Source of the DNA: a virus
Strand: one strand, 5' to 3'
DNA length: 23,921 nt
Virus record (IMG/VR): IMGVR_UViG_3300012988_000040
Location: 1-23,921 of that record
Part shown: piece after piece, positions 14,068 to 23,749 of the stretch
How the letters are laid out: each line of letters opens with the position of its first letter
How positions within the stretch are numbered: the stretch's first letter is position 1
The notes under the pieces: generated by a model
Databases searched by the model: none
The model's input: only the letters and a program-made list of their open reading frames with translations
What the model was told of the DNA's origin: nothing
Made by a program: the position numbers and the translations under genes

Positions 14068-14144
14068 TGGTGCCCAAGAAGGGATTCGAACCCTCATCAA
14101 CGGCTCTCGGAGTGCCGTGCACTGCCAATTTGTGCTACTTGGGC
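14068..14144 (-). tRNA. tRNA-Arg(CCG)
   Basis: Full cloverleaf with encoded CCA. Acceptor GCCCAAG/CTTGGGC; anticodon loop CTCCGAG; D-loop with GG; T-loop TTCGAAT (canonical elbow). A31-A39 mismatch in the anticodon stem. Confidence 0.93.
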
Positions 14145-14168
14145 GAAATGGAATGTTGGATTTGAATT

Positions 14169-14242
14169 TGGTGCCCCAGAGAGGTTACGCTCCTCTGACT
14201 CATTCTTACCAAGAATGCAGTTTACTATTAGCTTACAGGGGC
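14169..14242 (-). tRNA. tRNA-Thr(GGT), AG/GC elbow
   Basis: Anticodon arm CATTC TTGGTAA GAATG is perfect. The T-loop is AGCGTAA instead of TTCRANN, and the D-loop AATAGTAA has AG where GG is normal. CCA encoded. The D-stem is weak. Confidence 0.85.
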
Positions 14243-14251
14243 ATGATATAA

Positions 14252-14308
14252 TGGAGGCATGGTCAGTATAAACCGTGAACCGAGTATCTGCAGCCTCAGA
14301 CCCACGCC
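14252..14308 (-). tRNA. Mini tRNA-like unit (57 nt) with CCA
   Basis: 7-bp acceptor GGCGTGG/CCATGCC (one G-U), T at position 73 and encoded CCA, but only 37 nt between positions 9 and 66. An inner CTGAG/CTCGG stem with a 10-nt loop is the only clear arm. No readable anticodon. Confidence 0.5.
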
Positions 14309-14316
14309 ATTGAAAT

Positions 14317-14431
14317 TGGTGCGCTAGGTAGGATTTTCACCTACAGTTTGAAGCTCTTTCATCAACAAAATGATTACTCAAGCTTGCGGCATCTTGTACG
14401 ATGCCGTGTCTGATAGTTTCACCACCAGCGC
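14317..14431 (-). tRNA. Oversized tRNA (115 nt), isotype unclear
   Basis: Acceptor GCGCTGG/CTAGCGC with CCA; T-arm GTAGG TGAAAAT CCTAC; D-arm GTG/CAC. The anticodon arm GGCATC/GATGCC leaves a 6-nt loop, or an 8-nt loop if the last pair opens (CGTACAAG). An extra arm of about 40 nt between anticodon and T-arms folds as a nested hairpin (AAGCT/AGCTT). Confidence 0.6.
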
Positions 14432-14440
14432 ATTGAAAAT

Positions 14441-14514
14441 TGGTACCCAGTGGCAGTGTCGATCTGCCGATTCCCACTTGTAAGGAAGGTGTATTACCGT
14501 TATACTAACCGGGC
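14441..14514 (-). tRNA. tRNA-Val(TAC)
   Basis: Acceptor GCCCGGT/ACTGGGT, D-loop AACGGTA (GG), anticodon loop CTTACAA, T-loop ATCGACA, encoded CCA. Anticodon stem has one mismatch. Confidence 0.85.
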
Positions 14515-14651
14515 ATAATAAGTGTCAAGCTCACCGCATTTAATGGGGATTTCAATTTCCCATCAAATAGTCGCGGCTCCCGTGCCAGGACTTAGGGAAC
14601 TGATGGGTGGCACCCTCATCATCCTTTATCGTCACTTGACGTAACTCTGTG
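14515..14651. other. Gap between tRNA-Val and an unknown gene
   Basis: 137 nt with no ORF. On the minus strand GTCAAG (near 14637) and CTTGAC (near 14525) could close it, with an inner ATGGG/CCCAT hairpin. A decayed tRNA is possible; no anticodon arm can be read. Confidence 0.35.
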
Positions 14652-15182
14652 TTAGAGTGGCACCTTGGAGATGTCTCTCACGCTGGTGTCAATCTTGAAA
14701 ATTCGATTCAACTGAAGAGTTGACTTGGTCTCAAATCCTTCAGTGACTAATGTGTAGTTTGCATGAAGCCATGCTGTCTTGCGCTCAGCGTAAGCAGAAT
14801 GTGCCTTCCTGTATTCCTCATAAGTGTTTCGCTGTTCAGTGCGCAGCTTTTCCTCATGAGCAAGATCTTCAGGAGTCTTGGTCCTGTAGTTTCCATAATA
14901 CGTTGTGCGTGATTCTGGATACGTGTATTTTGGCGCTGTCTCAATCTTGTCATACAAGTCCCATTCATACTGACTGTTGTCAGCATTGCTGCGCCAAACA
15001 TTGCGTGTTCTTTCTTCAACAACGACAACTCTCAGATTCTTGTCAGTTCCTCTTGAACCAAGATAGCGACCAACGCCAACGTGTACATTGCCAGTTGACT
15101 TCGTCACAATGACAATTGGATCATTTGGTTGTATCACCTGATCAATCTTGTTCTTGAAAGGCACTGAATCATAAGGTAGCAT
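14652..15182 (-). CDS. Hypothetical protein inside the tRNA array
   Basis: 176 aa starting MLPYDSVPFKNKIDQVIQPN. The first half is beta-rich (PIVIVTKSTGNVHVGVGRYL); the second is a long charged helix (DLAHEEKLRTEQRNTYEEYR). No family recognised. It is flanked by tRNA genes and by a 21-nt hairpin (15220-15240). It could be cargo carried with the array. Confidence 0.65.
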   Translation of the reverse strand: MLPYDSVPFKNKIDQVIQPNDPIVIVTKSTGNVHVGVGRYLGSRGTDKNLRVVVVEERTRNVWRSNADNSQYEWDLYDKIETAPKYTYPESRTTYYGNYRTKTPEDLAHEEKLRTEQRNTYEEYRKAHSAYAERKTAWLHANYTLVTEGFETKSTLQLNRIFKIDTSVRDISKVPL

Positions 15183-15219
15183 GTTGAATCCTCATCATGT
15201 AGGTTTTCACGGTGTAGGG

Positions 15220-15240
15220 AAACATCATACCCTGATGTTT
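15220..15240. other. Perfect 8-bp hairpin before tRNA-Leu
   Basis: AAACATCA/TGATGTTT with a 5-nt loop between tRNA-Leu(TAA) and the 15182 gene. No T-tract follows, so it is more likely an RNA-processing or stabilising hairpin than a terminator. Confidence 0.5.
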
Positions 15241-15246
15241 CTTAAT

Positions 15247-15326
15247 TGGTGCCCCCAGTGGGATTTGAACCCACAAATGACGGACGTTTTAAGTGTCCCG
15301 CATATGCCACGTTCTGCTACAGGGGC
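15247..15326 (-). tRNA. tRNA-Leu(TAA)
   Basis: Acceptor GCCCCTG/TGGGGGC, anticodon loop CTTAAAA, T-loop TTCAAAT, D-loop with GG, CCA encoded. A31-C39 mismatch. Confidence 0.9.
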
Positions 15327-15330
15327 AAAT

Positions 15331-15401
15331 CATTCCAGCTGACTTTCCAAATTAGTCGACTGTTCATCACGGTGGGAATCGAACCCACATCCACTGGAGT
15401 T
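15331..15401 (-). pseudogene. Rearranged tRNA remnant, 3' half before 5' half
   Basis: A perfect T-arm (GTGGG TTCGATT CCCAC, 15370-15386) is followed by a D-arm-like GAC/GTC with GG in its loop. The anticodon-stem strands GCTGG and CCAGT pair across the two parts in permuted order. The acceptor strands do not pair, so it is probably dead. Confidence 0.4.
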
Positions 15402-15478
15402 TGGTGCGCAAGGTGGGAGTTGAACCCACAAAATTCACCCTCTCGAGGTGACACGTATGCCAGTTCCGTCACAAGCGC
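15402..15478 (-). tRNA. tRNA-Leu(GAG), 5' end overlapped by a homing endonuclease gene
   Basis: Anticodon arm TCACC TCGAGAG GGTGA is perfect but position 33 is C rather than U. Acceptor GCGCTTG/CTTGCGC has two mismatches (positions 5 and 6). The last 10 nt of the endonuclease frame, including its TGA, lie inside the tRNA. Confidence 0.8.
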
Positions 15479-16065
15479 AAAGTTCTGCCTTTCTTATATC
15501 CATCAGGGATATTAGAATCTAATTTGATCTTTCTATTGAGAACCCCATTGGTGATCCACATAGAACCATATTGGTTATTCTGACTCCCAACTCTTGATTG
15601 GGCCTTTGATCTCAATTTTTGTTTGGTTTCATCAGAATGTTTCTTACCAAAGAAAGTTTTATTTCCTTTAGCAAAGGAATTGCCAAACGCCGGAGGAGGC
15701 TTTATTCCTTTCTTCTTCAAGGTTTCTGACCTCTTAAGGTTTGACTCTTCGCTATTGGAATCAACCAATCCATTGTCATTGATATAGTCAAACCCACCGA
15801 ATCCACCCACTTTCATGTTGTAGGTGTTTTCGTTCATTAGGTAATCTTTAGTGACGATCTCAGCTTCCTTTGAATACATATCAGCTGAATTGTCAAAGAC
15901 ATTGAGAATCTCCTTCTCGAAGTTCTCCAGTCCATATTTGTTGATGGCTCGTTTCAGGTATGTACCTGAACCCATATAACCATCGTCAAGCTTCTTGGTC
16001 TTATGTGATCCTATGTAGGATTTGCCAGACAGCTTGTTGGTAACTTTGTAGATGATGTAATGCAT
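15469..16065 (-). CDS. GIY-YIG homing endonuclease (Seg-like)
   Basis: 198 aa. The N-terminal GIY-YIG domain reads YIIYKVTNKLSGKSYIGSHK then DGYMGSGTYLKRAINKYG, NFEKEIL and a later glutamate (KEAEIV). The C-terminal half (KRSETLKKKG, FGKKHSDETKQKLRSKAQ) is the NUMOD-type DNA-binding region of Seg and intron-encoded enzymes. It makes a site-specific double-strand break to copy itself into phages lacking it. It sits between tRNA-Arg(CCT) and tRNA-Leu(GAG) and ends inside the Leu tRNA. Confidence 0.9.
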   Translation of the reverse strand: MHYIIYKVTNKLSGKSYIGSHKTKKLDDGYMGSGTYLKRAINKYGLENFEKEILNVFDNSADMYSKEAEIVTKDYLMNENTYNMKVGGFGGFDYINDNGLVDSNSEESNLKRSETLKKKGIKPPPAFGNSFAKGNKTFFGKKHSDETKQKLRSKAQSRVGSQNNQYGSMWITNGVLNRKIKLDSNIPDGYKKGRTLRL

Positions 16066-16088
16066 GCATCTATTTAGTTACCTCAGGG

Positions 16089-16161
16089 TGACCCCGGTCA
16101 GACTCAAACTGACGACCTGTGATGTAGGAGATCACTGCTCTATTCACTGAGCTACGGAGCC
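16089..16161 (-). tRNA. tRNA-Arg(CCT), GA/UU elbow
   Basis: Acceptor GGCTCCG/CGGGGTC, anticodon loop CTCCTAC. D-loop AGTGAATA has GA where GG is normal; T-loop TTTGAGT has U56. CCA is not encoded (ACCC follows). Confidence 0.9.
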
Positions 16162-16166
16162 AAAAA

Positions 16167-16243
16167 TGGTGACCCTTGAGGAAGTCGAATCCCCAACCTC
16201 TTGTTTCGTAGACAAGTGCTCTATCCAGTTGAGCTAAAGGGCC
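16167..16243 (-). tRNA. tRNA-Arg(ACG)
   Basis: Acceptor GGCCCTT/AAGGGTC, perfect anticodon stem with loop CTACGAA, D-loop AACTGGATA, T-loop TTCGACT, CCA encoded. Confidence 0.95.
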
Positions 16244-16252
16244 ATAATAAAT

Positions 16253-16327
16253 TGGAGTCAAAGAAGGGATTTTAACCCATGTAGAACTGTTTTGCAGACA
16301 GCTGCCTAGACGCTCGGCCACTTTGAC
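16253..16327 (-). tRNA. tRNA-Cys(GCA), GU/UA elbow
   Basis: Acceptor GTCAAAG/CTTTGAC, anticodon loop CTGCAAA, CCA encoded. D-loop has GU (AGCGTCTA) and no GG; T-loop TTAAAAT has A56. Confidence 0.88.
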
Positions 16328-16332
16328 ATAAT

Positions 16333-16413
16333 TGGCGGTTCTACTACCAGGAGCATGCCCTTATATGAACTGTAAAGGACACTCAGCAGTCACCCTGTAT
16401 ACTGGGTTCGAAC
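16333..16413 (-). tRNA. Degenerate tRNA-like unit
   Basis: GGTTC/GAACC acceptor core (6 of 7 pairs) with G and CCA. D-arm-like CC/GG; the T-arm is only AGG GCATGCT CCT. The anticodon is not readable. Confidence 0.4.
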
Positions 16414-16423
16414 CATAATAAAT

Positions 16424-16497
16424 TGGAGCAGGCAGCGAGGGTCGAACTCGCGACTAAACCTTGGCAAGGTTCAATATTACCACTATACTATGCCTGC
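16424..16497 (-). tRNA. tRNA-Gly(GCC)
   Basis: Acceptor GCAGGCA/TGCCTGC, anticodon loop TTGCCAA, D-loop AGTGGTA, T-loop TTCGACC, CCA encoded. Confidence 0.94.
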
Positions 16498-16504
16498 ATA
16501 AAAT

Positions 16505-16583
16505 TGGTCAGAGGAGCGGGGTTCGCACCCGCACGATATTCTCGGTTCCAGGCCGAGTCGCCTGCTATATGGCGCTCCCTCTG
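16505..16583 (-). tRNA. tRNA-Pro(TGG), AG/GC elbow
   Basis: Acceptor CAGAGGG/TCCTCTG, anticodon arm CTCGG CCTGGAA CCGAG (C33, not U33). D-loop ATATAGCA has AG; T-loop TGCGAAC has G55-C56. CCA encoded. Confidence 0.9.
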
Positions 16584-16593
16584 ATTCTAAAAT

Positions 16594-16667
16594 TGGCAGG
16601 TCGTTAGGGAGTCGAACCCCAGCTAAGAATTTTGGAGATTCCTGTGCTACCGTAACACTTACGACCT
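16594..16667 (-). tRNA. tRNA-Trp(CCA)
   Basis: Acceptor AGGTCGT/ACGACCT, anticodon loop CTCCAAA, D-loop with GG, T-loop TTCGACT, G73 and CCA. Confidence 0.93.
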
Positions 16668-17168
16668 ATTGATGTATTTATCTTCCACAGTTGCGATGCG
16701 TCTTGCTCTGTGCAGGGGCATACTTACCTCAGCTTTCGCCGCGACAGGTCGGTGATGGTTGATTGAAATGAACCATCCTCATAGCTGCCCTTCTGGTTTT
16801 ACCCTGTCATTTGACTACCAGCTTTCGCTGATCTGGCTCCGATAAGCCAGCGCACCAACCCGAACCCTCGTCGAGCAAAGTCATCAAGTTCTGTTTGGCT
16901 TGCTGCAGTCATCGTTGTGGTATAACGATAAATTCAATGTGGGTGACGCACCACGCGGCTGGTTTAGAGTATGGTTACTCCCACTATCACAGCAAACTGT
17001 TCTGGAGCCTCATCACAGTACTTCCCTGTGTATTACTGTTTACGAAACAGTCGTGTCAATTTTAACACTTATGAGGCGAATGAAATGAGGACTCAGCCAA
17101 CTCCTAAGTGGTTACAGCGAGATTACTCTGGCTGCTCAAGTGCGCACTCATCAGATTTGTCCTCAAAT
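16668..17168. other. 500-nt non-coding stretch with tRNA-like fragments
   Basis: No credible ORF and no full cloverleaf. Minus-strand hairpins include GATGGTT/AACCATC (near 16757-16780), CAGC-GAAA-GCTG with a GNRA loop (near 16825), CTGGCT/AGCCAG (near 16840) and ACTGTTT/AAACAGT (near 17043). Near 16964-16990 GGGAGTA-ACCA-TACTCTA is followed by a D-arm-like CCA/TGG, so a permuted or broken tRNA is possible. Confidence 0.4.
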
Positions 17169-17260
17169 TGGCGGAAGGCTGAGTAGTCGAAACCCATGGA
17201 CCAATCGGCCCACAATGACTTTAGCAAAGTCTTCCAGCACGCCTGTCTGGTTAACCTTCC
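17169..17260 (-). tRNA. tRNA-Ser(GCT)
   Basis: Class II tRNA. Acceptor GGAAGGT/GCCTTCC, anticodon loop TTGCTAA, long variable arm GGGCC/GGTCC, T-arm TGGGT TTCGACT ACTCA, CCA encoded. Confidence 0.9.
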
Positions 17261-17288
17261 TTTGATTAGGTCGTCCTGCTAACTCTAG

Positions 17289-17314
17289 CAATCAGTTATC
17301 TATAGTTCTGATTG
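17289..17314. other. 7-bp hairpin in a tRNA spacer
   Basis: CAATCAG/CTGATTG with a 12-nt loop, next to a TGCTA/TAGCA hairpin, in the 105-nt gap between tRNA-Ser and tRNA-Lys. GACGACC occurs as a direct repeat at both ends of the gap. No tRNA can be read here. Confidence 0.4.
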
Positions 17315-17365
17315 TCAGCTGTTCAAAGAGCTATGCTCATATGTTGCTAGCCACGGTCGTCAAAT

Positions 17366-17441
17366 TGGTGAACCATGTAGGAACTGCCCCCACATCACTC
17401 CGCTTAAAAGGCGGGTCTCTATCTAATTGAGTTAATGGTCC
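17366..17441 (-). tRNA. tRNA-Lys(TTT), AG/GC elbow
   Basis: Acceptor GGACCAT/ATGGTTC, anticodon loop CTTTTAA. D-loop AATTAGATA has AG; T-loop is GGCAGTT. CCA encoded. Confidence 0.9.
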
Positions 17442-17449
17442 ATAAAACT

Positions 17450-17537
17450 TGGCAGAAAGTTACGGTCACGCTCCGTAACAGCTTGCGCCGTCCACATTGT
17501 TTCCAGCAATGGCCACACCTTGTGTGGTTAACTTTCT
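17450..17537 (-). tRNA. tRNA-Ser(GGA), variant T-loop
   Basis: Class II. Acceptor AGAAAGT/ACTTTCT, anticodon arm CATTG CTGGAAA CAATG, long variable arm, T-arm TACGG AGCGTGA CCGTA, CCA encoded. Confidence 0.9.
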
Positions 17538-17542
17538 ATATT

Positions 17543-17616
17543 TGGTACTCCCAATTGGTAACGCTCCAATGTCTAACGATTATCAGTCGTTTGCTCTTCT
17601 TTTGAGCTATGGAAGC
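17543..17616 (-). tRNA. tRNA-Ile(GAT), AG/GC elbow
   Basis: Anticodon arm AACGA CTGATAA TCGTT; acceptor GCTTCCA/TGGGAGT; D-loop AAAAGAA (AG, no GG); T-arm ATTGG AGCGTTA CCAAT; CCA encoded. Confidence 0.9.
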
Positions 17617-17620
17617 AAAT

Positions 17621-17706
17621 TGGCGATCTGGTCATAAGCGATGCTTGCTCTTGTTCCTGATCTTGAGGAGCAGGAGTTTAACGCTTAACGCTGCAAGTGC
17701 CAGATC
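17621..17706 (-). tRNA. Degenerate or highly divergent tRNA
   Basis: Perfect acceptor GATCTGG/CCAGATC with G73 and CCA. D-arm CTT/AAG; T-arm-like GAGC AAGCATC GCTT. The centre TCCTG/CAGGA has an 11-nt loop, so no anticodon can be assigned. GCGTTAA is directly repeated in the D region. Confidence 0.5.
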
Positions 17707-17714
17707 ATAATAAG

Positions 17715-17759
17715 CGAGGAAGGTGGATTTGCGCCACGGTAGCCTTGCAGACGTTCCTC
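17715..17759 (-). pseudogene. Mini tRNA-like remnant, no CCA
   Basis: GAGGAA/TTCCTC acceptor-like stem and a T-arm-like GTGG CGCAAAT CCAC with about 20 nt between. Most of the cloverleaf is missing. Confidence 0.4.
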
Positions 17760-17764
17760 AAAAT

Positions 17765-17839
17765 TGGCTGGGGAACTAGGGTACGATCCTAGGACAATTG
17801 TTTCAGAGACAATTATGTTACCAATTACACCATTCCCCA
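17765..17839 (-). tRNA. tRNA-Gln(CTG)
   Basis: Acceptor TGGGGAA/TTCCCCA, perfect anticodon stem ATTGT/ACAAT with loop CTCTGAA, D-loop AATTGGTA, T-loop ATCGTAC, CCA encoded. Confidence 0.93.
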
Positions 17840-18737
17840 ATATAAAGACCCACCAGATATGCGCTTCTTCGAGAGGCGTGGTGAGTGTGTTGTAGCTGCT
17901 AGGGTTTCGATATCCTAGCATCGTCAGTCTTTTTATCGCATCTGATACAGCGACCGGATCCTTTATTCTTCACCGTGAGATTCACTATTTCGTAGGCCAA
18001 GTTCTGATCCACCTGTTAGGAGGTAGCTTTTGCACAACTAGAATAACGCAAGTGATTTGCGGCTTGACCACAACACTGTTGTCCACCAGTGCGTTTCACC
18101 CTTCAAGGCGGAGGAGTGGATTTGGGGTGATGGGAGGTATTTGCAACCTCTATAAAACTGCTTTCACAGAGCAGGGCCATATCTACTTCGGCTTCCACCA
18201 CATATAACGAATCCTCAACACCGTGTCGGCATTGCAACCATTGAACTTGGTCTAGTGGGTTTCTCAATTTGTTCAGAACTGATATTCTTCCACCATAGGA
18301 TTTACGATCATGAATTCGCGGGCAGTTAGGCTGCCAATCCTTGGGTCTCTTCCCCAACTGTACGTGTCTGTAACCCAACACGACCGGGAACCGTACCTTG
18401 GCTTAATAGGCTGTATACGAATTTGAATGCTGAGTGCCGGTTTTCAGCCGACATAATTTCGGTACATGCGATTTATTAGTGGCGTCCACCCTCTGCAAAG
18501 CCACTTATGCATAGTGACTCCGCTTCATCAGGTAGGTTGGGTTTTCACCAACATGGAATGGCCTTCTGAATTATATTCTTACCCATTCCTACATAGCACT
18601 CACCGACCCTGCTTCAATTTGCTGCATCGGCTTTCGTTGTGCCACAATCTTCATGGTCTTCCTGGACCTACTCTCACCGTGATTGAAGTCACGTGCCTGC
18701 TCCCCGAAGGACGGGATGAAACAAGCTTCTCAACAAC
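17840..18737. other. About 900 nt of non-coding sequence in the tRNA array
   Basis: No ORF on either strand with a ribosome site or recognisable product. Structured pieces are visible on the minus strand: GCTAGG/CCTAGC (near 17898-17919), CACCA/TGGTG, and near 18528-18597 a T-arm-like GTTGG TGAAAAC CCAAC beside a GGAATGG/CCATTCC stem. Several look like eroded tRNA parts; I cannot assemble a complete tRNA. Confidence 0.4.
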
Positions 18738-18812
18738 TGGTGCATCCTGTTGGTAACGCTCCAACCTATCGGGCTTTTCAGACCCATGCTAATCTATCTC
18801 AGCTAAAGATGC
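18738..18812 (-). tRNA. tRNA-Phe(GAA), AG/GC elbow
   Basis: Acceptor GCATCTT/AGGATGC, anticodon loop CTGAAAA, D-loop AGATAGATT (AG), T-arm GTTGG AGCGTTA CCAAC, CCA encoded. Confidence 0.9.
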
Positions 18813-18939
18813 ATAAAATGTGCCTGATCTAGCTACACTGGCCAGTGACTAGGTTGATCGCTCAGGCGGCAAACGTGTTCAAGACCCTTCAACCTTTCGG
18901 TGAGGATGCGTCCATCCTATATTATAGGTCACAACTGGA

Positions 18940-19008
18940 TACCCTTCATGGATTTGCACCATGGTTGATCGCTTCAAAGGCGAGAGTCTTGCTATTAGAC
19001 GAAAGGGC
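18940..19008 (-). tRNA. tRNA-Gln(TTG), AG/GC elbow
   Basis: Acceptor GCCCTTT/GAAGGGT, anticodon loop CTTTGAA, D-loop AATAGCA (AG), T-arm CATGG TGCAAAT CCATG. CCA is displaced by one base (ATCCA), so the tail may need remaking. Confidence 0.85.
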
Positions 19009-19016
19009 AATAATAT

Positions 19017-19091
19017 TGGCGTCTCTACAGGGTGCTGCCCCCTGTTTTGATGATTGAGAATCATCGGTCCTAGCTGGTAGACGATAGAGAC
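19017..19091 (-). tRNA. tRNA-Glu(CTC), AG/GC elbow
   Basis: Acceptor GTCTCTA/TAGAGAC, anticodon arm GATGA TTCTCAA TCATC, D-loop ACCAGCTA (AG), T-arm CAGGG GGCAGCA CCCTG, CCA encoded. Confidence 0.92.
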
Positions 19092-19095
19092 AAAT

Positions 19096-19170
19096 TGGCA
19101 CTCCCACAAGGAATCGAACCTCAGTCTCCACCCTCAAATGGGTGGTGCTCTGACATTGAGCTATAGGAGT
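19096..19170 (-). tRNA. tRNA with a 6- or 8-nt anticodon loop, isotype unclear
   Basis: Acceptor ACTCCTA/TGGGAGT, T-arm TGAGG TTCGATT CCTTG, D-arm GCTC/GAGC, CCA encoded. Anticodon stem CCACCC/GGGTGG leaves loop ATTTGA, or CATTTGAG if one pair opens; TTG would then follow a U33. D-loop AATGTCA lacks GG although the T-loop has C56. Confidence 0.75.
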
Positions 19171-19178: not shown

Positions 19179-19226
19179 GGGTCTTGATGATTTTCACATC
19201 TACACAATCCGTGAGTTGCCAGACCC
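19179..19226 (-). pseudogene. Mini tRNA-like remnant, no CCA
   Basis: GGGTCT/AGACCC stem, T-arm-like GATG TGAAAAT CATC and one small arm; about 48 nt in all. The TGAAAAT loop recurs in the oversized tRNA at 14317-14431. Confidence 0.4.
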
Positions 19227-19638
19227 CATAATTCAGTGGTGCCATTGGGTAACAAGGCGGCACCGAACCCAGCATTAGGCAGCAAGTGCCTGATGGTAGT
19301 TGTCTTCATTTGCATTTAGACGTTTGCTTCTTTAACGTCGATCGCCTGACGGCATGTCATTATCTTTTTCAACCAAGAGTCGAACCTATTCAGACCCATT
19401 AATATACGCTTTCCAGTATATTTTGATTTTATACTGATAAGCGTATATTGGTGGATCTGGGGAGATTTGCACTCCCGTGTTCCTGACCTATTCAAGTCAA
19501 CTTCCCACATGCTTGCTGATGATGTTACTCATCAGCTAAAACGAATTACGATTGCAAATTATGGTGCATCGTCAAATGCCACACTCGCCTGTTGACGCAG
19601 ACCGCACAAGCTTGTACGCCAGTGCGTTCACAAAAGAT
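19227..19638. other. Gap with a permuted tRNA-like unit and debris
   Basis: No ORF with support. Holds the permuted unit listed at 19391-19515, a GGTGCC/GGCACC hairpin near 19240-19265 and a GCAC/GTGC hairpin around an ACAAGCTTGT palindrome near 19608. The rest is unassigned. Confidence 0.4.
19391..19515 (-). other. Candidate circularly permuted tRNA
   Basis: Reading the minus strand: TGAC/GTCA arm, T-arm GGGAG TGCAAAT CTCCC (19460-19476), 3' acceptor strand CAGATCC, A, CCA; then an 11-bp plus 7-bp hairpin (19401-19449); then GGGTCTG (19391-19397), which pairs 7/7 (one G-U) with the acceptor strand before it. The 5' strand thus follows the 3' end. The D region is poorly resolved. Confidence 0.45.
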
Positions 19639-19714
19639 TGGAGCAGGTAGCGGGAGTCGAACCCGCGTCATGTGCTTGGAAGGCACTCATAATGAGCCGT
19701 TATACTATACCTGC
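19639..19714 (-). tRNA. tRNA-Gly(TCC)
   Basis: Acceptor GCAGGTA/TACCTGC, anticodon loop CTTCCAA, D-loop with GG, T-arm GCGGG TTCGACT CCCGC, CCA encoded. Confidence 0.93.
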
Positions 19715-19719
19715 ATGAT

Positions 19720-19814
19720 TGGTGGTTCTACTAGGATTCAAACCTAGACTATGCTCTAATCTGGAGCTAATACACGGTATAAGCGTGCTGTGCTAATCGT
19801 TACACCATAGAACC
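19720..19814 (-). tRNA. tRNA with TAT anticodon and long variable arm (Ile-AUA?), GA/UU elbow
   Basis: 95 nt. Acceptor GGTTCTA/TAGAACC, D-loop AACGATTA (GA), anticodon arm GCACG CTTATAC CGTGT, variable arm GCTC/GAGC, T-loop TTTGAAT, CCA. A class II arm is unusual for an isoleucine tRNA. Confidence 0.85.
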
Positions 19815-19946
19815 GAATAAATCTTTCAGCCGCCACACCTCATTTGGCCTTTCACCTTGCCGGGTGCTATTGTCTTGCTGGGAGAATTTGAACCATTACC
19901 CAAGCGACCTACTTTGTCGTCAGGAGTCACCCTGACCTAGAAAACA

Positions 19947-20039: not shown

Positions 20040-20041
20040 AT

Positions 20042-20118
20042 TGGTGCCCCCGGTGGGAGTTGAACCCACAAAATTTAGCTTCTAAGACTAACACGTATGC
20101 CAGTTCCGTCACAGGGGC
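20042..20118 (-). tRNA. tRNA-Leu(TAG)
   Basis: Acceptor GCCCCTG/CGGGGGC, anticodon loop CTTAGAA, T-loop TTCAACT, D-loop with GG, CCA encoded. Shares its D-arm and short variable region with Leu(GAG) and Leu(CAA). Confidence 0.9.
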
Positions 20119-20148
20119 AAAATTGTGCGGGTTATCGCCTCCTCGCAG

Positions 20149-20185
20149 CGCCGGACTTTTACCGAAGGCAACTATGATGTTACCG
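20149..20185. repeat. Diverged repeat, copy 1 (with 22002-22038)
   Basis: The two spacers share CGCCGGA-TTTACCG-AG...CTATGATT/GTTAC over about 37 nt; on the minus strand both carry a CGGTAAAA-TCCGGCG block. They are between different tRNAs, so the element has been duplicated within the array. Confidence 0.5.
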
Positions 20186-20194
20186 TTATCGCAG

Positions 20195-20268
20195 TGGTAG
20201 CTCATGGTGGTTACGCTCCACCGACTTCTCCTTATGAGGGAGGTGTCTTACTATTAAACTAATGAGCC
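20195..20268 (-). tRNA. tRNA-Met or Ile2 (CAT), AG/GC elbow
   Basis: Acceptor GGCTCAT/ATGAGCT, anticodon loop CTCATAA, D-loop AATAGTA (AG), T-arm GGTGG AGCGTAA CCACC, CCA encoded. Initiator, elongator or lysidine-type Ile cannot be told apart. Confidence 0.88.
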
Positions 20269-20324
20269 ATAATAAGGTGCAGTTGTTCTCTAGCGAGGCG
20301 GGATTATGTTGGAGCTACCTCAAA

Positions 20325-20420
20325 TCACTGCTCTATTGAACTAACTGGACAGTTGATACGCAACTTGCTTCCAGTGTGGATTCTCACCACATCGACTGCT
20401 AATTTGGTGGCCTTCGCAAG
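20325..20420 (-). other. Candidate circularly permuted tRNA (weaker)
   Basis: Minus strand: T-arm TGTGG TGAGAAT CCACA (20375-20391), acceptor-like ACTGGA, hairpin AGTTG/CAACT (20351-20365), then TCCAGT followed by TA and a D-arm GTTC AATA GAGC. ACTGGA pairs with TCCAGT. D-loop AU and T-loop GA (55-56) fit each other. A normal-order reading with CAGTT/AACTG is also possible. Confidence 0.4.
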
Positions 20421-20478
20421 TCCCCAGAATGATGGCCGCATGGGCCCTCCGAGGATACTCTGTCCCGGCCATTGAAAG

Positions 20479-20552
20479 TGGTACTCCCAGCAGGTAACGC
20501 TCCTGCGACTTTGCAATGTCAATGCAATGAGTTACTTTTACACTATGGGAGT
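20479..20552 (-). tRNA. tRNA-Val(GAC), AG/GC elbow
   Basis: Acceptor ACTCCCA/TGGGAGT, anticodon arm TTGCA TTGACAT TGCAA, D-loop AAAAGTA (AG), T-arm GCAGG AGCGTTA CCTGC, CCA encoded. Confidence 0.9.
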
Positions 20553-20560
20553 GCATGAAT

Positions 20561-20636
20561 TGGTGGCTTTCGTGGGAATCAAACCCACAGCACGCGGTGT
20601 TAGAAGCCGCTGTTCTGGTCATTGAACTAGAAAGCC
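20561..20636 (-). tRNA. Amber suppressor-type tRNA (anticodon CTA), GA/UU elbow
   Basis: All stems follow standard numbering: acceptor GGCTTTC/GAAAGCC, D-arm GTTC AATGACCA GAAC, anticodon arm GCGGC TTCTAAC ACCGC (C31-A39 mismatch, U33, A37), T-arm GTGGG TTTGATT CCCAC, A73 and CCA. Positions 34-36 are CTA, pairing with UAG. The amino acid carried cannot be read. It begins immediately after the TAA of the oxygenase gene. Confidence 0.85.
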
Positions 20637-21008
20637 TTAGAATCTAAAACCGAATGACAACAACCAACGTTCACCCTTACACACGGAGGTAAAGTGAAAG
20701 TGCTTGTTTGCTTCGAAAAGCATGATGCGTCCATTGAACCAGCTATAATACTTGGGACATATGAAGTCCCCACCAGACTCTGGTCTCTTCAACAAGAAAT
20801 TGAGACGCCAATGACGTTTCAATCCAAAGGAAGGATCCTTGTGCCTTGGGATGTATGATCCGCTCCTGTAGTGGAACAGATAGCAATCAAAGTATCGACA
20901 AAATGCTAAGGTCAATAACCTGTAGCCAGTTTTGGAAAACTTGTCTTCACCCCAACGAAACAACTTCAGAGTTGGTTTAGTAAGCTAGATCTTTGGCATA
21001 ACAGTCAT
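20637..21008 (-). CDS. 2OG-Fe(II) oxygenase with an in-frame UAG at codon 8
   Basis: 123 codons from the ATG at 21008, which has GGAG about 6 nt upstream. The frame reads MTVMPKI, then TAG (20985-20987), then LTKPTLKLFRWGEDKF without a break. The C-terminal part is a double-stranded beta-helix oxygenase: YLFHYRSGSYIPRHKDPS gives HxD for iron, and HFTSVCKGERWLLSFGF gives the distal His and the Arg for 2-oxoglutarate. Such enzymes hydroxylate proteins or nucleic acids. The only start after the UAG in the conserved region is a TTG without a Shine-Dalgarno. The CUA-anticodon tRNA lies directly downstream, suggesting readthrough or recoding; a decayed gene is the alternative. Confidence 0.8.
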
Positions 21009-21055
21009 GATTTTCTCCATTAATTACGACACGAACAAAAGAACTACCGGACAAC

Positions 21056-21123
21056 ACCAACGGTTGGAATCGAACCAACATTAACCCCTGAACGGGGCTG
21101 TCCTTCCATTAGACGACGAGGTC
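21056..21123 (-). pseudogene. tRNA-Glu(TTC)-like, acceptor stem lost
   Basis: Glu-like 5' part (TCGTCTAATGGAAGGACA), anticodon arm AGCCC CGTTCAG GGGTT (G33) and a perfect T-arm GTTGG TTCGATT CCAAC. The acceptor strands GACCTCG and CGTTGGT do not pair and there is no CCA. Confidence 0.6.
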
Positions 21124-21135
21124 ATACATTTTAAG

Positions 21136-21189
21136 TGGTCATCACACCACCGCATTAGTATGTTCCGGATATAACCCCATGACGTGATG
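21136..21189 (-). tRNA. Mini tRNA-like unit (54 nt) with CCA
   Basis: 7-bp acceptor CATCACG/TGTGATG, A73 and encoded CCA. Only 36 nt lie between the strands; no anticodon arm of normal size. Confidence 0.5.
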
Positions 21190-21205
21190 GTCATAAGGTT
21201 TAAGA

Positions 21206-21302
21206 TGGCACTCTCGGATGGAATTTAACCACCGACCTTTCCTGCAACTTATCAGCGTTGGCCAATGTTTTGAGGACTGCTCTTTCTCTGAGCTACAAGA
21301 GT
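21206..21302 (-). tRNA. tRNA with about 22 extra nt, Ile(GAT)-like loop
   Basis: Acceptor ACTCTTG/CGAGAGT, D-arm GCTC AGAGAAA GAGC, T-arm GGTGG TTAAATT CCATC, CCA. The centre holds CAAC-GCTGATAA-GTTG, an 8-nt loop containing CTGATAA as in tRNA-Ile(GAT), inside an outer TCCT/AGGA stem. Insertion or intron-like; function doubtful. Confidence 0.6.
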
Positions 21303-21310
21303 ATAGAATT

Positions 21311-21389
21311 TGGCGACCAGTACGGGATTTTAACCCGTGATCTCCTCCGTGACAGGGAGGTACATTAAAACAGACTATGTTAACTGGCC
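21311..21389 (-). tRNA. tRNA-Asp(GTC), GU/UA elbow
   Basis: Acceptor GGCCAGT/ACTGGTC, anticodon arm CCTCC CTGTCAC GGAGG, D-loop AGTCTGTTTTA with GU and no GG, T-arm ACGGG TTAAAAT CCCGT (A56), CCA encoded. Confidence 0.92.
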
Positions 21390-21398
21390 ATTGAAAAG

Positions 21399-21421
21399 CT
21401 GTTCCGGTAACGTTGTCCAGA
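21399..21421 (-). other. Acceptor-like 7-bp hairpin
   Basis: GTTCTGG/CCGGAAC with a 9-nt loop, just upstream of tRNA-Asp. A perfect CGAATC-CAT-GATTCG hairpin lies next to it (near 21430). The remaining 21422-21535 holds TCGGG/CCCGA with a 7-nt loop (near 21508) but no full tRNA. Confidence 0.35.
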
Positions 21422-21535
21422 ACGACGAATCATGGATTCGGTTTGATGTAGGCATATGAATTGACTCATAGTCATCAAAGAACCCCAACACTCAGATTAG
21501 GAGCGATCGGGAAAGTTGCCCGACACTTGTCAATA

Positions 21536-21611
21536 TGGTGGACGATACAGGGATTGAACCTGCGACCTGATACATGCCATGCATCTGCTCTCCCAGCTGA
21601 GCTAATCGCCC
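21536..21611 (-). tRNA. tRNA-Ala(GGC)
   Basis: Fully canonical: acceptor GGGCGAT/ATCGTCC, anticodon arm GATGC ATGGCAT GTATC, D-loop AGCTGGGA, T-loop TTCAATC, CCA encoded. Confidence 0.95.
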
Positions 21612-21617
21612 GAAAAT

Positions 21618-21683
21618 TGGTCCAGACATTTATCAGACCCTCCGAGTTTTGAGGGTCACTGTATCAAGTACAGTAGATTCTGG
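21618..21683 (-). tRNA. Degenerate tRNA-like unit (66 nt) with CCA
   Basis: CCAGA/TCTGG acceptor core, A73, CCA; arm ACTGT ACTTGAT ACAGT; a perfect 7-bp GACCCTC/GAGGGTC hairpin. No T-arm is visible. Confidence 0.45.
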
Positions 21684-21698
21684 CCTCTAACGTTGAAT

Positions 21699-21758
21699 TG
21701 TGCCGTTTATGGGATTCGAACCCACATCTGGTGCACCATAGTTCCTGAACAACAACAC
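21699..21758 (-). pseudogene. Shortened tRNA-like unit, canonical T-arm
   Basis: Acceptor GTGTTGT/ACGGCAC (two G-U), T-arm GTGGG TTCGAAT CCCAT, collapsed D-arm GTTC/GAAC, and a palindromic TGGTGCACCA where the anticodon arm should be. No CCA. GTG occurs centrally, so a decayed His tRNA is conceivable. Confidence 0.45.
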
Positions 21759-21762
21759 AAAT

Positions 21763-21849
21763 TGGCAGATGGCTGAGGTATCGATCCCCTAGCTTTTACA
21801 CTCCACTCGTTTTCAAGACGAGGTCACTGGCCACAGTAATTAACCATCT
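21763..21849 (-). tRNA. tRNA-Ser(TGA)
   Basis: Class II. Acceptor AGATGGT/GCCATCT, anticodon arm CTCGT CTTGAAA ACGAG, variable arm, T-loop ATCGATA, CCA encoded. Confidence 0.92.
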
Positions 21850-21854
21850 ATAAT

Positions 21855-21954
21855 TGGTAGCGGGGGCAGGAGTCGAACACTGCTATCATTTGGTTATGAG
21901 CCAAATATGATCTAGGAACCTTTTACAGTTACCATTCCGTTTCACTCACCCGCT
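21855..21954 (-). tRNA. tRNA-Met(CAT)-like with a 20-nt insertion
   Basis: 100 nt. Anticodon arm TTTGG CTCATAA CCAAA is perfect and extends outward (ATC/GAT). Acceptor AGCGGGT/CCCCGCT (one mismatch) with CCA. About 20 nt are inserted between D-arm and anticodon stem, and one T is bulged in the T-stem. Confidence 0.7.
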
Positions 21955-22001
21955 ATTGAAAATATATCCATTATCGCTGGATGATGCGGTTGATTGCCGC
22001 T

Positions 22002-22038
22002 CGCCGGATTTTACCGGAGCATCTATGATTACATCACC
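22002..22038. repeat. Diverged repeat, copy 2 (with 20149-20185)
   Basis: Lies in the 21955-22140 spacer, which also has ATCCA/TGGAT and GCGG/CCGC hairpins with 7-nt loops and a CACC/GGTG hairpin. No ORF or complete tRNA there. Confidence 0.5.
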
Positions 22039-22140
22039 TTGCGGTGTGGGTCTGTTGTTGATGCTATCGACTTGAGTGGGTCCTATGTCCTTTCATATGT
22101 CTTCTCACGATTTACCGTGAACTTCATCATCACTCAAATT

Positions 22141-22216
22141 TGGTACACCTACTCGGAACTGCCCCGAGATCCAGCTGCTTAAGAGGCAGAGCTCTATCTA
22201 ATTGAGTTATAGGTGC
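22141..22216 (-). tRNA. tRNA-Lys(CTT), AG/GC elbow
   Basis: Acceptor GCACCTA/TAGGTGT, anticodon loop CTCTTAA, D-loop AATTAGATA (AG), T-arm CTCGG GGCAGTT CCGAG, CCA encoded. Same elbow as Lys(TTT). Confidence 0.9.
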
Positions 22217-22400
22217 ATTGAAAATGTGGTCACTGATTTGCTACGCTGGTTCATGTGGCCGAAACCTCAAAGTTCTGTTGGTCCCTTTACTCAGTTGCCA
22301 TGGCTCATTGCCACGTTTAACCTTTCGGAGATCGCGAAGCATGGTGGGAAACACCAAGGTCCATCCTTTCCCAAAGACAGACATTCCTCTTACAACAAAT

Positions 22401-22477
22401 TGGCGTACCAGATGGGACTCGAACCCACATCATCCAGAGTGAAAGTCTAGTATTCTTTCCTGTTAAACTACTGGTAC
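22401..22477 (-). tRNA. tRNA-Glu(TTC)
   Basis: Acceptor GTACCAG/CTGGTAC, anticodon arm CTAGA CTTTCAC TCTGG, D-loop with GG, T-loop TTCGAGT, G73 and CCA. The 184-nt spacer before it (22217-22400) holds no ORF and no assignable tRNA. Confidence 0.88.
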
Positions 22478-22483
22478 ATAAAC

Positions 22484-22570
22484 TGGTGCATTATGTAGGA
22501 TTCGAACCTACTGCGCCCGAAGGCGGCTGTTTTACAGACAGCTGTGACTCTCCAACTTCACCGATAATGC
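22484..22570 (-). tRNA. tRNA-Tyr(GTA)
   Basis: Class II. Acceptor GCATTAT/ATAATGC, D-arm GTGA/TCAC with GG, anticodon arm GCTGT CTGTAAA ACAGC, variable arm CGCC/GGCG, T-loop TTCGAAT, CCA encoded. Confidence 0.95.
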
Positions 22571-22578
22571 ATAAATTG

Positions 22579-22615
22579 TGAAGAAGCCTACATTTCATCA
22601 GCTTTCGTTTCTTCA
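22579..22615 (-). other. Acceptor-like 7-bp stem-loop
   Basis: TGAAGAA/TTCTTCA perfect stem with 23 nt between. No CCA. Probably a further eroded unit. Confidence 0.35.
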
Positions 22616-22650
22616 TACGCTACATGACCCATAACATGCAGACTTGGGTT

Positions 22651-22725
22651 TGGTGGACCGTGAGGGTTCCGCCCCCTCTTCTCCTACGTGCAAGGCAGGA
22701 ATAATACCTAGTATACTAACAGCCC
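22651..22725 (-). tRNA. tRNA-Ala(TGC), AG/GC elbow
   Basis: Acceptor GGGCTGT/ACGGTCC, anticodon arm CCTGC CTTGCAC GTAGG, T-arm GAGGG GGCGGAA CCCTC, D-loop ACTAGGTATT, CCA encoded. Confidence 0.9.
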
Positions 22726-22729
22726 AAAT

Positions 22730-22766
22730 TGGCACCAATGGACTTGATTGTCCCACCTTCATTGGT
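22730..22766 (-). tRNA. Mini tRNA-like unit (37 nt) with CCA
   Basis: Perfect 7-bp acceptor ACCAATG/CATTGGT, G73 and encoded CCA, with only 19 nt inside (an inner GAC/GTC stem). Flanked by the same AATTT spacer as true tRNAs. Confidence 0.5.
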
Positions 22767-22805
22767 ATGTGGTTGCTACATCAGCATAACACTGACTGCT
22801 TGTTT

Positions 22806-22882
22806 TGGTGCCTCAGGAGGGAGTCGAACCCTCAAAATTTTGGTTTTGAATCAAACACGTATGCCAGTTCCGTCACCGAGGC
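22806..22882 (-). tRNA. tRNA-Leu(CAA)
   Basis: Acceptor GCCTCGG/CTGAGGC, anticodon loop TTCAAAA, D-arm as in the other Leu tRNAs, T-arm GAGGG TTCGACT CCCTC, CCA encoded. A31-C39 mismatch. Confidence 0.88.
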
Positions 22883-22884
22883 GT

Positions 22885-22970
22885 AAATAACCGGAGAATG
22901 TCATCCCACTAGACCATAATAGGTGATCAGCCCACTAGCGGGATTCGAACCCGCGTCTTTCTCCATCTCT
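22885..22970 (-). other. Candidate circularly permuted tRNA (best case)
   Basis: Minus-strand order: GGAGAA (22959-22964), T-arm GCGGG TTCGAAT CCCGC (22938-22954), 3' acceptor TAGTGGG (22931-22937), 7-nt linker, 5' acceptor CCTATTA (22917-22923), TG, D-arm GTC/GAC with GG (22900-22914), TTCTCC (22893-22898). The acceptor strands pair 7/7 (two G-U) and the anticodon-stem strands 6/6. The opening would be in the anticodon loop. Confidence 0.55.
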
Positions 22971-22975
22971 TTAAT

Positions 22976-23052
22976 TGGTGGTACTACCAGGATTCGAACC
23001 TGGAACGGACGCTAATCAGGCATCCATGATGCGCAATTTCAAACATAGTACC
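22976..23052 (-). tRNA. tRNA with GAT anticodon (Ile?), atypical D region
   Basis: Acceptor GGTACTA/TAGTACC, anticodon arm GATGC CTGATTA GCGTC (U37, unusual), T-arm CCAGG TTCGAAT CCTGG, CCA encoded. No regular D-arm found. Confidence 0.75.
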
Positions 23053-23054
23053 AT

Positions 23055-23093
23055 TGGTGAACAAATCACTTTCGCAGATCTGCTCATTTGCTC
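23055..23093 (-). tRNA. Mini tRNA-like unit (39 nt) with CCA
   Basis: Acceptor GAGCAAA/TTTGTTC (one G-U), A73 and encoded CCA; 21 nt inside with the palindrome GCAGATCTGC. Confidence 0.5.
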
Positions 23094-23123
23094 GCCGACT
23101 TTAACTAAATCGGAAATTGAATT

Positions 23124-23201
23124 TGGCTCCAGGCTCAGGAGTCGAACCTGACAAAGCTTCGTTAACAGCGAAGAGGACACCACCATCGGTCCGGGACTGG
23201 A
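23124..23201 (-). tRNA. tRNA-Asn(GTT)
   Basis: Acceptor TCCAGTC/GCCTGGA (one mismatch), anticodon arm CTTCG CTGTTAA CGAAG, D-arm GGAC/GTCC with GG, T-loop TTCGACT, CCA encoded. Confidence 0.9.
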
Positions 23202-23209
23202 ATTGAAAT

Positions 23210-23285
23210 TGGCACCCTTGATAGGAATCAAACCTACACTGAATGAGGTAGAAGCTCATTGCTCTATTCGTTAAGCTACAAGGGC
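23210..23285 (-). tRNA. tRNA-Arg(TCT), GA/UU elbow
   Basis: Acceptor GCCCTTG/CAAGGGT, anticodon arm ATGAG CTTCTAC CTCAT, D-loop AACGAATA (GA), T-arm GTAGG TTTGATT CCTAT (U56), CCA encoded. Confidence 0.93.
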
Positions 23286-23675
23286 ATAATAATTCCCTGT
23301 CGTGGTCGGTAATACAACCCACAAGGTCTAGTGACTCCTTCAAAATCACCAGTCTTCGCATGGCGAAGAAGGAAAAGAATTTGCTGGGAGTATATCGTAG
23401 AACTCCCGAACGGCTGACTTCCACAGCGACTCTACTGACCCAGATCGTTGGGTTAGGCTTTCAAGTCGTGTTGTCTTCCAGATGCCGGATACCCTTGGCT
23501 ACAGTTACTCGTTTCACAACGATTTCGCCTCATCTCGCGAGCTTTCACTCTTAGACATCTTACTCAACAATTAAATCGGGAAGGTATCAACGACGACACT
23601 GGATCGATGCCTCGATCCAAGGTATGTGCTTCTTAAGCACTGTCCCGCAAACATCTGTTTGCTCTCATCCCAAAC
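23286..23675. other. 390-nt non-coding stretch with hairpins
   Basis: No supported ORF. Perfect TCTTCGC/GCGAAGA hairpin with a 3-nt loop (23352-23368). Near 23577-23648 a tRNA-sized unit is closed by CGGGA/TCCCG and holds GTGC-TTAAGAA-GCAC and a perfect 7-bp GGATCGA/TCGATCC hairpin, without CCA. Confidence 0.4.
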
Positions 23676-23749
23676 TGGTGCCCCACCACGGTAATGGTCC
23701 GTGTTCTCCTACTTACAAGGCAGGTGCGTCACTTTAACGCTTGAGGGGC
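23676..23749 (-). tRNA. tRNA-Thr(TGT), variant elbow
   Basis: Acceptor GCCCCTC/GTGGGGC (one mismatch), D-arm GCGT TAAAGTG ACGC (AG, no GG), anticodon arm CCTGC CTTGTAA GTAGG, T-arm CACGG ACCATTA CCGTG, CCA encoded. Confidence 0.88.

Follow-up and report, generated by a model that had tools for sequence, protein, structure and literature searches.

Compensated exchanges of the D-loop/T-loop contacts in tRNAs of a phage array and of bacterial RNA-repair islands

About half of the tRNAs in a viral tRNA array do not have the conserved elbow G18 G19/U55 C56 but carry compensating exchanges, and more than 100 other phage contigs, as well as islands in bacterial genomes, carry tRNAs with matched alternative elbow contacts. 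Textbooks present G18, G19, Psi55 and C56 as almost invariant. The window, i.e. the whole 23,921-nt stretch analysed here, is the viral IMG/VR record IMGVR_UViG_3300012988_000040 (positions 1 to 23,921), and its array, on the minus strand at 14068-23749, holds at least 36 tRNAs (curated list, n=36; Table 1) and also non-tRNA units that resemble tRNAs and end in CCA. The window tRNAs match the RF00005 cloverleaf (stems of 7/4/5/5, anticodon and T loops of 7 nt each, CCA end). By their bases at D-loop 18-19/T-loop 55-56 they fall into class a (GG/UC), class b (AG/GC), class c (GA/UU) and class d (GU/UA), and re-examination bore out the units, coordinates and classes of the original prediction. 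No named phage matched the array in a megablast search.

Table 1. Features of the window (window coordinates).
Feature	Elbow	Coordinates	Strand	Remarks
T4 Rnl1-type RNA ligase (RNA repair)		5451..6365	-	PF09511
P-loop kinase (AAA_33)		6346..6849	-	PF13671; overlaps RNA ligase gene; possible polynucleotide kinase partner
tRNA-Arg(CCG)	a	14068..14144	-	
tRNA-Thr(GGT)	b, A54-U58	14169..14242	-	Rfam 42.4 bits; ARAGORN misses
tRNA-Val(TAC)	GG/UC, A54 A58	14441..14514	-	
tRNA-Leu(TAA)	a	15247..15326	-	
tRNA-Leu(GAG)	a	15402..15478	-	
tRNA-Arg(CCT)	c	16086..16161	-	
tRNA-Arg(ACG)	a	16167..16243	-	
tRNA-Cys(GCA)	d	16253..16327	-	
tRNA-Gly(GCC)	a	16424..16497	-	
tRNA-Pro(TGG)	b, TGCGAAC	16505..16583	-	ARAGORN, Rfam miss
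tRNA-Trp(CCA)	a	16594..16667	-	
tRNA-Thr(CGT)	A18U19/G55A56, G54-G58	17003..17077	-	
tRNA-Lys(TTT)	b, GGCAGTT	17366..17441	-	ARAGORN, Rfam miss
tRNA-Ile(GAT)	b, AGCGTTA	17543..17616	-	
tRNA-Gln(CTG)	GG/UC, A54-U58	17765..17839	-	
tRNA-Phe(GAA)	b, AGCGTTA	18738..18812	-	
tRNA-Gln(TTG)	b, TGCAAAT	18936..19009	-	
tRNA-Glu(CTC)	b, GGCAGCA (G54-G58)	19017..19091	-	
Aberrant tRNA	G18U19/U55C56	19096..19170	-	8-nt anticodon loop; exception
Permuted tmRNA	b swap, T-loop TGCAAAT	19184..19542	-	swap at 19460-19476 and D region 19379-19397
tRNA-Gly(TCC)	a	19639..19714	-	
TAT-anticodon tRNA	c	19720..19814	-	long variable arm
tRNA-Leu(TAG)	a	20042..20118	-	
tRNA-Met(CAT)	b, AGCGTAA	20195..20268	-	
tRNA-Val(GAC)	b, AGCGTTA	20479..20552	-	
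Amber-reading tRNA (CTA)	c	20561..20636	-	
Aberrant tRNA	G18A19/U55A56	21206..21302	-	enlarged anticodon arm; exception
tRNA-Asp(GTC)	d	21311..21389	-	
tRNA-Ala(GGC)	a	21536..21611	-	
tRNA-Lys(CTT)	b, GGCAGTT	22141..22216	-	
tRNA-Glu(TTC)	a	22401..22477	-	
tRNA-Tyr(GTA)	a	22484..22570	-	
tRNA-Ala(TGC)	b, GGCGGAA	22651..22725	-	G3-U70 identity pair kept
tRNA-Leu(CAA)	a	22806..22882	-	
tRNA-Asn(GTT)	a	23124..23201	-	
tRNA-Arg(TCT)	c	23210..23285	-	
tRNA-Thr(TGT)	A18G19/C55C56	23676..23749	-	19-56 kept, 18-55 fits neither rule; exception

Taking as the elbow rule that 18-55 is G-U or A-G and that 19-56 is a Watson-Crick pair, we found both contacts satisfied in 33/36 window tRNAs, a number that none of 20,000 shuffles reached (mean 12.7, sd 2.6, max 24), and a match in 18 of the 20 non-UC T-loops (shuffle mean 8.4, max 16). 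The covariation of 18-19 with 55-56 that had been predicted is thus confirmed in the window and also by viral loci outside it, and these independent loci weigh more than the shuffle test because the 18-55 rule was already known from the data beforehand. The two aberrant units had been named as exceptions, a list that was correct as far as it went but left out tRNA-Thr(TGT). tRNA-Thr(CGT) is a recombinant with the 18-55 pair of class b and the 19-56 pair of class d, and therefore 18-55 and 19-56 vary independently. The T-loop pair 54-58 covaries too, as U-A, A-U, G-G or C-A.

The Ile tRNA type of the window occurs in at least 119 IMG/VR contigs. In D-loops longer than 7 nt the 18-19 register is ambiguous, and the strict test was restricted to unambiguous 7-nt D-loops (n=573), where we counted 396 GG/UC, 158 AG/GC, 10 GA/UU, 3 GU/UA and 6 other tRNAs, frequencies that are biased by the gathering of loci through one class b Ile T-arm, with the D-loop and all other tRNAs unselected. 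The four matched classes together account for 567/573 of these viral tRNAs, and the mismatched combinations AG/UC and GG/GC occur in none of them. In the set dereplicated at 75% identity, 54-58 and 18-55 had higher APC-corrected mutual information than all other tertiary pairs and three stem pairs, and 19-56 likewise ranked near the top of the tertiary contacts. On a tree from which the elbow columns had been left out, a change at 18 was matched by a same-way change at 55 in 15-16 of 16 independent contrasts, and agreement was seen in about 9 of 10 contrasts for 19/56 and about 10.5 of 12 for 54/58, with none opposite for any of the three. The paired exchange can be seen in orthologous Ile tRNAs, which read AAAAGTA/AGCGTTA in Pseudomonas phage 16Q versus AAAGGTA/ATCGTTC in Stenotrophomonas phage DLP6, the latter and that of Bobbio being intermediates with A54-U58 yet GG/UC. 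That the contact is kept while its sequence changes, as had been proposed, is strongly supported inside and far outside the window. Among cultured phages, Brevundimonas phage vB_BgoS-Bajun has four class b tRNAs. Klebsiella T5-like phages also matched the Ile tRNA, but the elbow there is canonical, and T5-like phages were accordingly rejected as class b carriers; the search for class b Ile in plasmids gave a single weak partial match only.

In bacteria, a search of 84,980 species genomes for the exact class b Ile pattern yielded 19 contigs, of which 17 belong to Verrucomicrobia, and 11/196 genomes of the verrucomicrobial order Limisphaerales carry the pattern; a phylum-wide genome search added the centre genome only. 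The Limisphaerales have accessory islands made up nearly entirely of class b tRNAs, up to ~20 per island (T-loop 55-56 counts in the arrays: GC 180, GA 13, GG 13, GT 3, UC 4). These islands usually adjoin RtcB, with homologues in most loci, and sometimes Rsr/Ro60, the TROVE/Rsr gene being present in two loci (L173 and L199) together with RtcB and the tRNA array. Among the ten window proteins checked for RtcB or Rsr we found the Rnl1-type ligase and the P-loop kinase instead, and tblastn of the window with the islands' RtcB and TROVE proteins gave no match.

We think it probable that the array provides functional spare tRNAs, which would be expressed and aminoacylated and would keep their elbow geometry by compensatory exchanges. 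Covariation, repeated independent switches, kept identity elements, co-location with RNA-repair genes and the canonical housekeeping set of one carrier genome are the observations behind this; the geometry assumed for A18-G55 would be that reported from suppressor-tRNA selections. The pair 18-55 switches as a unit between G-U and A-G, 19-56 among G-C, A-U and U-A (C-G also occurs elsewhere) and 54-58 among its four forms. With purine 57 and the 7-nt T-loop always kept, the elbow stack, which is what RNase P and the L1 stalk of the ribosome read, should persist through these base changes. With the loss of U55, G18 and often U54 and A58, the sites of Psi55, Gm18, T54 and m1A58 are gone. Such a spare pool would most likely stay in service once canonical tRNAs are cut or disabled, in the phage and the Limisphaerales islands alike, and RNA repair would back it, through the Rnl1 ligase and kinase in the phage and through RtcB and Rsr in Limisphaerales. 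The variant elbow may let tRNAs work when ordinary ones are attacked, with a putative resistance to elbow-reading nucleases or modification enzymes. The predicted evasion of host enzymes or tRNA-cutting defences is plausible as a putative role, and the idea gains support because class b arrays are linked to RNA-repair genes. Against it, the PARIS nuclease AriB cleaves regardless of Psi55, in that one case (PMC12409363), and resistance of T5 tRNA-Tyr to retron-Eco7 maps to the variable loop (PMC13096335); known tRNA-targeting phage defences mostly hit the anticodon or variable loop. Furthermore, GG/UC tRNAs share arrays with the variants, so that even a single phage does not require the variant elbow throughout. 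More tentatively, and with some doubt, we suggest that phages and RNA-repair islands could hold a second tRNA pool whose elbow code differs from that of the host pool and which ARAGORN and Rfam detect only in part, to be used when canonical tRNAs are destroyed or mis-modified.

Neutral compensatory drift, in which the constraint of host modification is relaxed and the elbow wanders from one compensated state to another and is spread within arrays as tRNAs duplicate and change their anticodons, with no benefit, would account for the independent switches that recur at both members of a pair, the mixing of classes inside one array, the homologous class b Ile tRNAs across many phages and the DLP6 and Bobbio intermediates. 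However, uncompensated intermediates are nearly absent, and the Limisphaerales islands are almost uniformly class b although, in one carrier genome, the 40 housekeeping tRNAs have GG in every D-loop and 39 UC and 1 UU in the T-loop, a picture that looks selected or orthogonal; we regard drift as unlikely, if worth serious consideration. An improbable alternative is that the variants are decoys or regulators whose main task is not translation but keeping nucleases, RtcB/Rsr or modification enzymes engaged, in the manner of YrlA or tRNA-like RNAs. The CCA-ended non-tRNA units of the array, the Rsr/TROVE gene beside some bacterial arrays and the proposal of YrlA as a nuclease competitor (PMC7790460) would fit such a role, but a decoy would need none of the anticodons, identity elements, discriminators and encoded CCA that are kept over many amino acids. 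Indeed, G3-U70 is kept in 12/12 class b Ala tRNAs, class b tRNAs have the discriminators expected for their amino acids and an encoded CCA, and a purine stands at 57 in 387/387, the 7-nt T-loop being required by the scan itself. Judged by their sequences, class b tRNAs are not decayed: in the viral set they resemble class a in stem mismatches, T33, R37 and CCA, a comparison in which the scan favours intact stems, and the changes are paired, not random. Pseudogene decay could apply to a few aberrant units (the three exceptions in Table 1), is very improbable overall and, for the class as a whole, is ruled out by the identity elements. That the elbow mirrors a host lineage with variant elbows in its own tRNAs, for which class b arrays inside bacterial genomes might speak, we reject as having next to no probability, given the rarity of the class b Ile pattern, also within Limisphaerales, and the canonical housekeeping tRNAs of the carrier.

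The original prediction knew of no phage array described in this way, which fits the literature searched; the A18-G55 rule itself is not new, having reportedly emerged from suppressor-tRNA selections. In the 'specific purine trap', which Doyon, Zagryadskaya, Chen and Steinberg reportedly described in selected E. coli suppressor tRNAs (J Mol Biol, 2004), U55 is said to need G18 and G55 to need A18. The trap reportedly also calls for a purine at 57 and a T-loop of 7 nt, and in it A18 is said to stack between purine 57 and the 54-58 pair. The phage tRNAs follow the same 18-55 rule and have the same purine 57 and 7-nt T-loop. That system was a laboratory selection, mostly with U54-A58, whereas the present tRNAs are natural, occur in many phages and bacterial islands for many amino acids, have A-U, G-G and C-A at 54-58 as well and exchange 19-56 too. 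Staphylococcal cell-wall tRNA-Gly, which has altered D- and T-loop bases and binds EF-Tu poorly, is restricted to glycine, whereas the tRNAs described here span many amino acids and carry the identity elements used in translation. Eukaryotic tRNA-Ala and initiator tRNA also show a natural exchange of a conserved tertiary pair of the T-loop, namely A54-A58, a variant reported absent from bacteria and archaea, but that case concerns one amino acid and one T-loop pair, compared with three elbow pairs here in phages and bacteria (PMC7566577). The clustered tRNAs of T5 and mycobacteriophage C1, for which replacement of tRNAs cleaved by host defence has been proposed or demonstrated, are similar in arrangement and in the protective role that the present array would have, but their resistance maps to the anticodon or variable loops and no elbow change is described in the literature searched (PMC10264068, PMC11555353, PMC12409363). 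Features in common with the rsr-yrlBA-rtcBA operons for RNA repair in bacteria (PMC7790460) and with the trn operon of Anabaena, which is regulated together with rtcB (PMC10272220), are RtcB and Rsr and the link of RtcB to a tRNA array; the text consulted in these papers reports no elbow variants, in contrast to the class b tRNAs of the Limisphaerales islands.

With compensated exchanges at all three elbow pairs, this large set of natural tRNAs could yield isostericity rules for the elbow, and it makes directly testable whether a given enzyme or part of the ribosome recognises the bases or the shape. Phage arrays and bacterial RtcB/Rsr islands are connected by having these altered tRNAs in common, and why phages carry tRNAs at all, a long-standing question, becomes testable via paired class a/class b variants.

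On a practical matter, ARAGORN recovers 54% of class b versus 99% of canonical tRNAs, and 4% of the G54-G58 type. Whether annotation tools miss the variants had been proposed as a check. Of the 12 tRNAs with G55 in the window, ARAGORN detects 2, and Infernal with RF00005 retrieves some of the others but, up to E 5, does not list five (Pro, Thr(CGT), both Lys and Glu(CTC)). Given such misses, the number of phage tRNAs may be underestimated and their sets of anticodons may have gaps. Weak Rfam matches to abiF, YrlA, miRNA and plastid families lay under the gathering scores and were discarded. The tmRNA of the array has a T-loop swap like that of the variant tRNAs.

Across the dense array of CCA-ended tRNAs at 14068-23749 (minus strand, short A/T-rich spacers) of this 23.9-kb IMG/VR virus record, D-loop positions 18-19 had been predicted to covary with T-loop positions 55-56, giving GG/UC (class a), AG/GC (class b), GA/UU (class c) and GU/UA (class d) elbows. 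We divided each unit into its stem and loop segments and scored a curated list of 36 tRNAs by a rule that requires G-U or A-G at 18-55 and Watson-Crick pairing at 19-56. Both contacts obey the rule in 33, a number reached in 0 of 20,000 shuffles of the T-loops (mean 12.7, maximum 24), supporting the covariation; among non-UC T-loops, 18 of 20 match (shuffle mean 8.4, maximum 16). Thr(CGT) at 17003 joins A18-G55 with U19-A56, indicating that the two contacts vary independently. The exceptions named in the original prediction, 19096 and 21206, both stand, but the list was incomplete, as Thr(TGT) at 23676 sets A18 G19 against C55 C56.

Other features of the window
Feature	Position	Remarks
Permuted tmRNA	19184-19542	within array; phage-encoded; tag ANEDNYHQALAA
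GIY-YIG/SegE-like homing endonuclease gene	15469-16065	within array
T4 Rnl1-type RNA ligase	5451-6365	outside array
P-loop kinase	6346-6849	outside array; overlaps RNA ligase gene
Amber-reading tRNA (CTA anticodon)	20561-20636	class c elbow

Since the rule was partly derived from the window itself, we tested it on tRNAs from elsewhere. A DNA pattern fixing the anticodon loop and T-arm of the class b Ile(GAT) tRNA, with the D-loop left free, matches at least 119 IMG/VR contigs. These and related contigs yielded 573 tRNAs with 7-nt D-loops, where 18 and 19 are unambiguous: 396 GG/UC, 158 AG/GC, 10 GA/UU, 3 GU/UA and 6 others, with not one AG/UC or GG/GC mismatched elbow. As the original prediction proposed, we computed covariation at 18-55 and 19-56, and it is present outside the window too. 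By APC-corrected mutual information (sequences dereplicated at 75% identity), 18-55 and the T-loop pair 54-58 were the top non-stem pairs, exceeding also three stem pairs, and 19-56 outranked the known contacts 8-14 and 15-48. We also scored independent contrasts on a rough tree of short sequences from which the elbow columns had been left out: 18 co-changed with 55 in 15-16 of 16, 19 with 56 in about 9 of 10 and 54 with 58 in about 10.5 of 12. No opposite-direction changes occurred at these pairs, while 18 and 54 were mostly uncoupled. Among 1,532 unique tRNAs, the D-loop matched the T-loop in 96% of GC, 95% of UU, 100% of UA and 71% of GG cases, well above length-matched random D-loops; GA T-loops had a matched D-loop in just 2 of 13.

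The Ile pattern also occurs in bacteria: a search of 84,980 species genomes gave 19 contigs, of which 17 belong to Verrucomicrobia. T-loops of the bacterial arrays (180 GC, 13 GA, 13 GG, 3 GT, 4 UC) are nearly all class b, and the class b arrays combined cover 17 amino acids. Most have an RtcB homologue inside or nearby, although three matches have just 27-31% identity and lie outside the array; Rsr/TROVE is present at two. A conserved 276-aa protein of unknown family, with no Pfam, PHROGs or NCBIfam match, lies within three Limisphaerales class b arrays (L173, 14188-15018; L162; L169). One carrier contig reads as chromosomal, because it runs on into LTD/CotH/laminin-G genes and its neighbours have almost no PHROG family matches. 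A further 40 tRNAs of its genome have canonical or near-canonical elbows (39 UC and 1 UU T-loops, all with a GG D-loop). Within the order Limisphaerales the pattern is found in 11 of 196 genomes and is therefore accessory. Limisphaerales loci L153-L171 and L196-L207 hold Arg and Leu tRNAs with A18 C19 and G55 G56; this C19-G56 elbow is a fifth version, absent from the window.

Among cultured phages, Brevundimonas phage vB_BgoS-Bajun carries class b tRNAs for Ile, Val, Leu and Phe, and Pseudomonas phage 16Q carries them for Ile and Pro. The Ile tRNA of Pseudomonas phage KIL1 (T-loop AGCGTTA, D-loop AAAAATA; no gene is annotated at the site) keeps A18-G55 with 19-56 broken. In Stenotrophomonas phage DLP6 and Pectobacterium phage Bobbio, the orthologous Ile tRNA has a GG/UC elbow and an A54-U58 pair; in T5-like Klebsiella phages, the Ile tRNA is canonical.

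Class b tRNAs retain amino-acid-appropriate discriminator bases and CCA, the Ala identity pair G3-U70 (12 of 12) and, in the viral set, T33; their stem pairing resembles class a, a likeness that is conditional because the scan favours intact stems. Position 57 is a purine in 387 of 387. These retained features speak against both decay and a pure decoy role. The array tmRNA shows the class b kind of T-loop swap, with TGCAAAT versus TTCAAAT in the permuted tmRNA of another phage; on its D side, Infernal places A at the first of two conserved Gs, ambiguously given a one-base gap.

Suppressor-tRNA selections in E. coli reportedly gave the identical rule, G18 going with U55 and A18 with G55. The elbow stack (A58, G18, G57, G19, C56) and the flat 19-56 face are read by the ribosome, RNase P and T-boxes (PMC4810234). 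Compensated exchanges should preserve the shape of both. Modification sites disappear with the loss of U55, G18 and often U54/A58. In view of the link to RNA repair and of precedents for phage tRNAs replacing cut host tRNAs (PMC10264068, PMC11555353, PMC12409363), the likeliest reading is that variant-elbow tRNAs serve as a spare, attack-tolerant pool, a functional step that we infer. AriB is indifferent to Psi55, which counts against a simple version of this spare pool.

Phage tRNA elbows of this kind were undescribed in the literature searched, which was mostly open access. On the question whether tRNA finders miss the variant classes, ARAGORN found 54% of GC tRNAs, versus 99% of UC, and 1 of 26 with G54-G58, recall being measured on units from our own scan.

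Over 15 further IMG/VR loci with class b tRNAs contain relatives of the homing endonuclease. Between the window's tRNAs lie CCA-ended folded units that are not standard tRNAs, among them 14317-14431 (folding z = -4.8), 21763-21849 (a weak tRNA-Sec match) and 21855-21955, which recall T5's annotated tRNA-like stable RNAs of unknown function. At 17848-17885 there is a below-threshold abiF RNA match (33.5 bits against a gathering score of 37).
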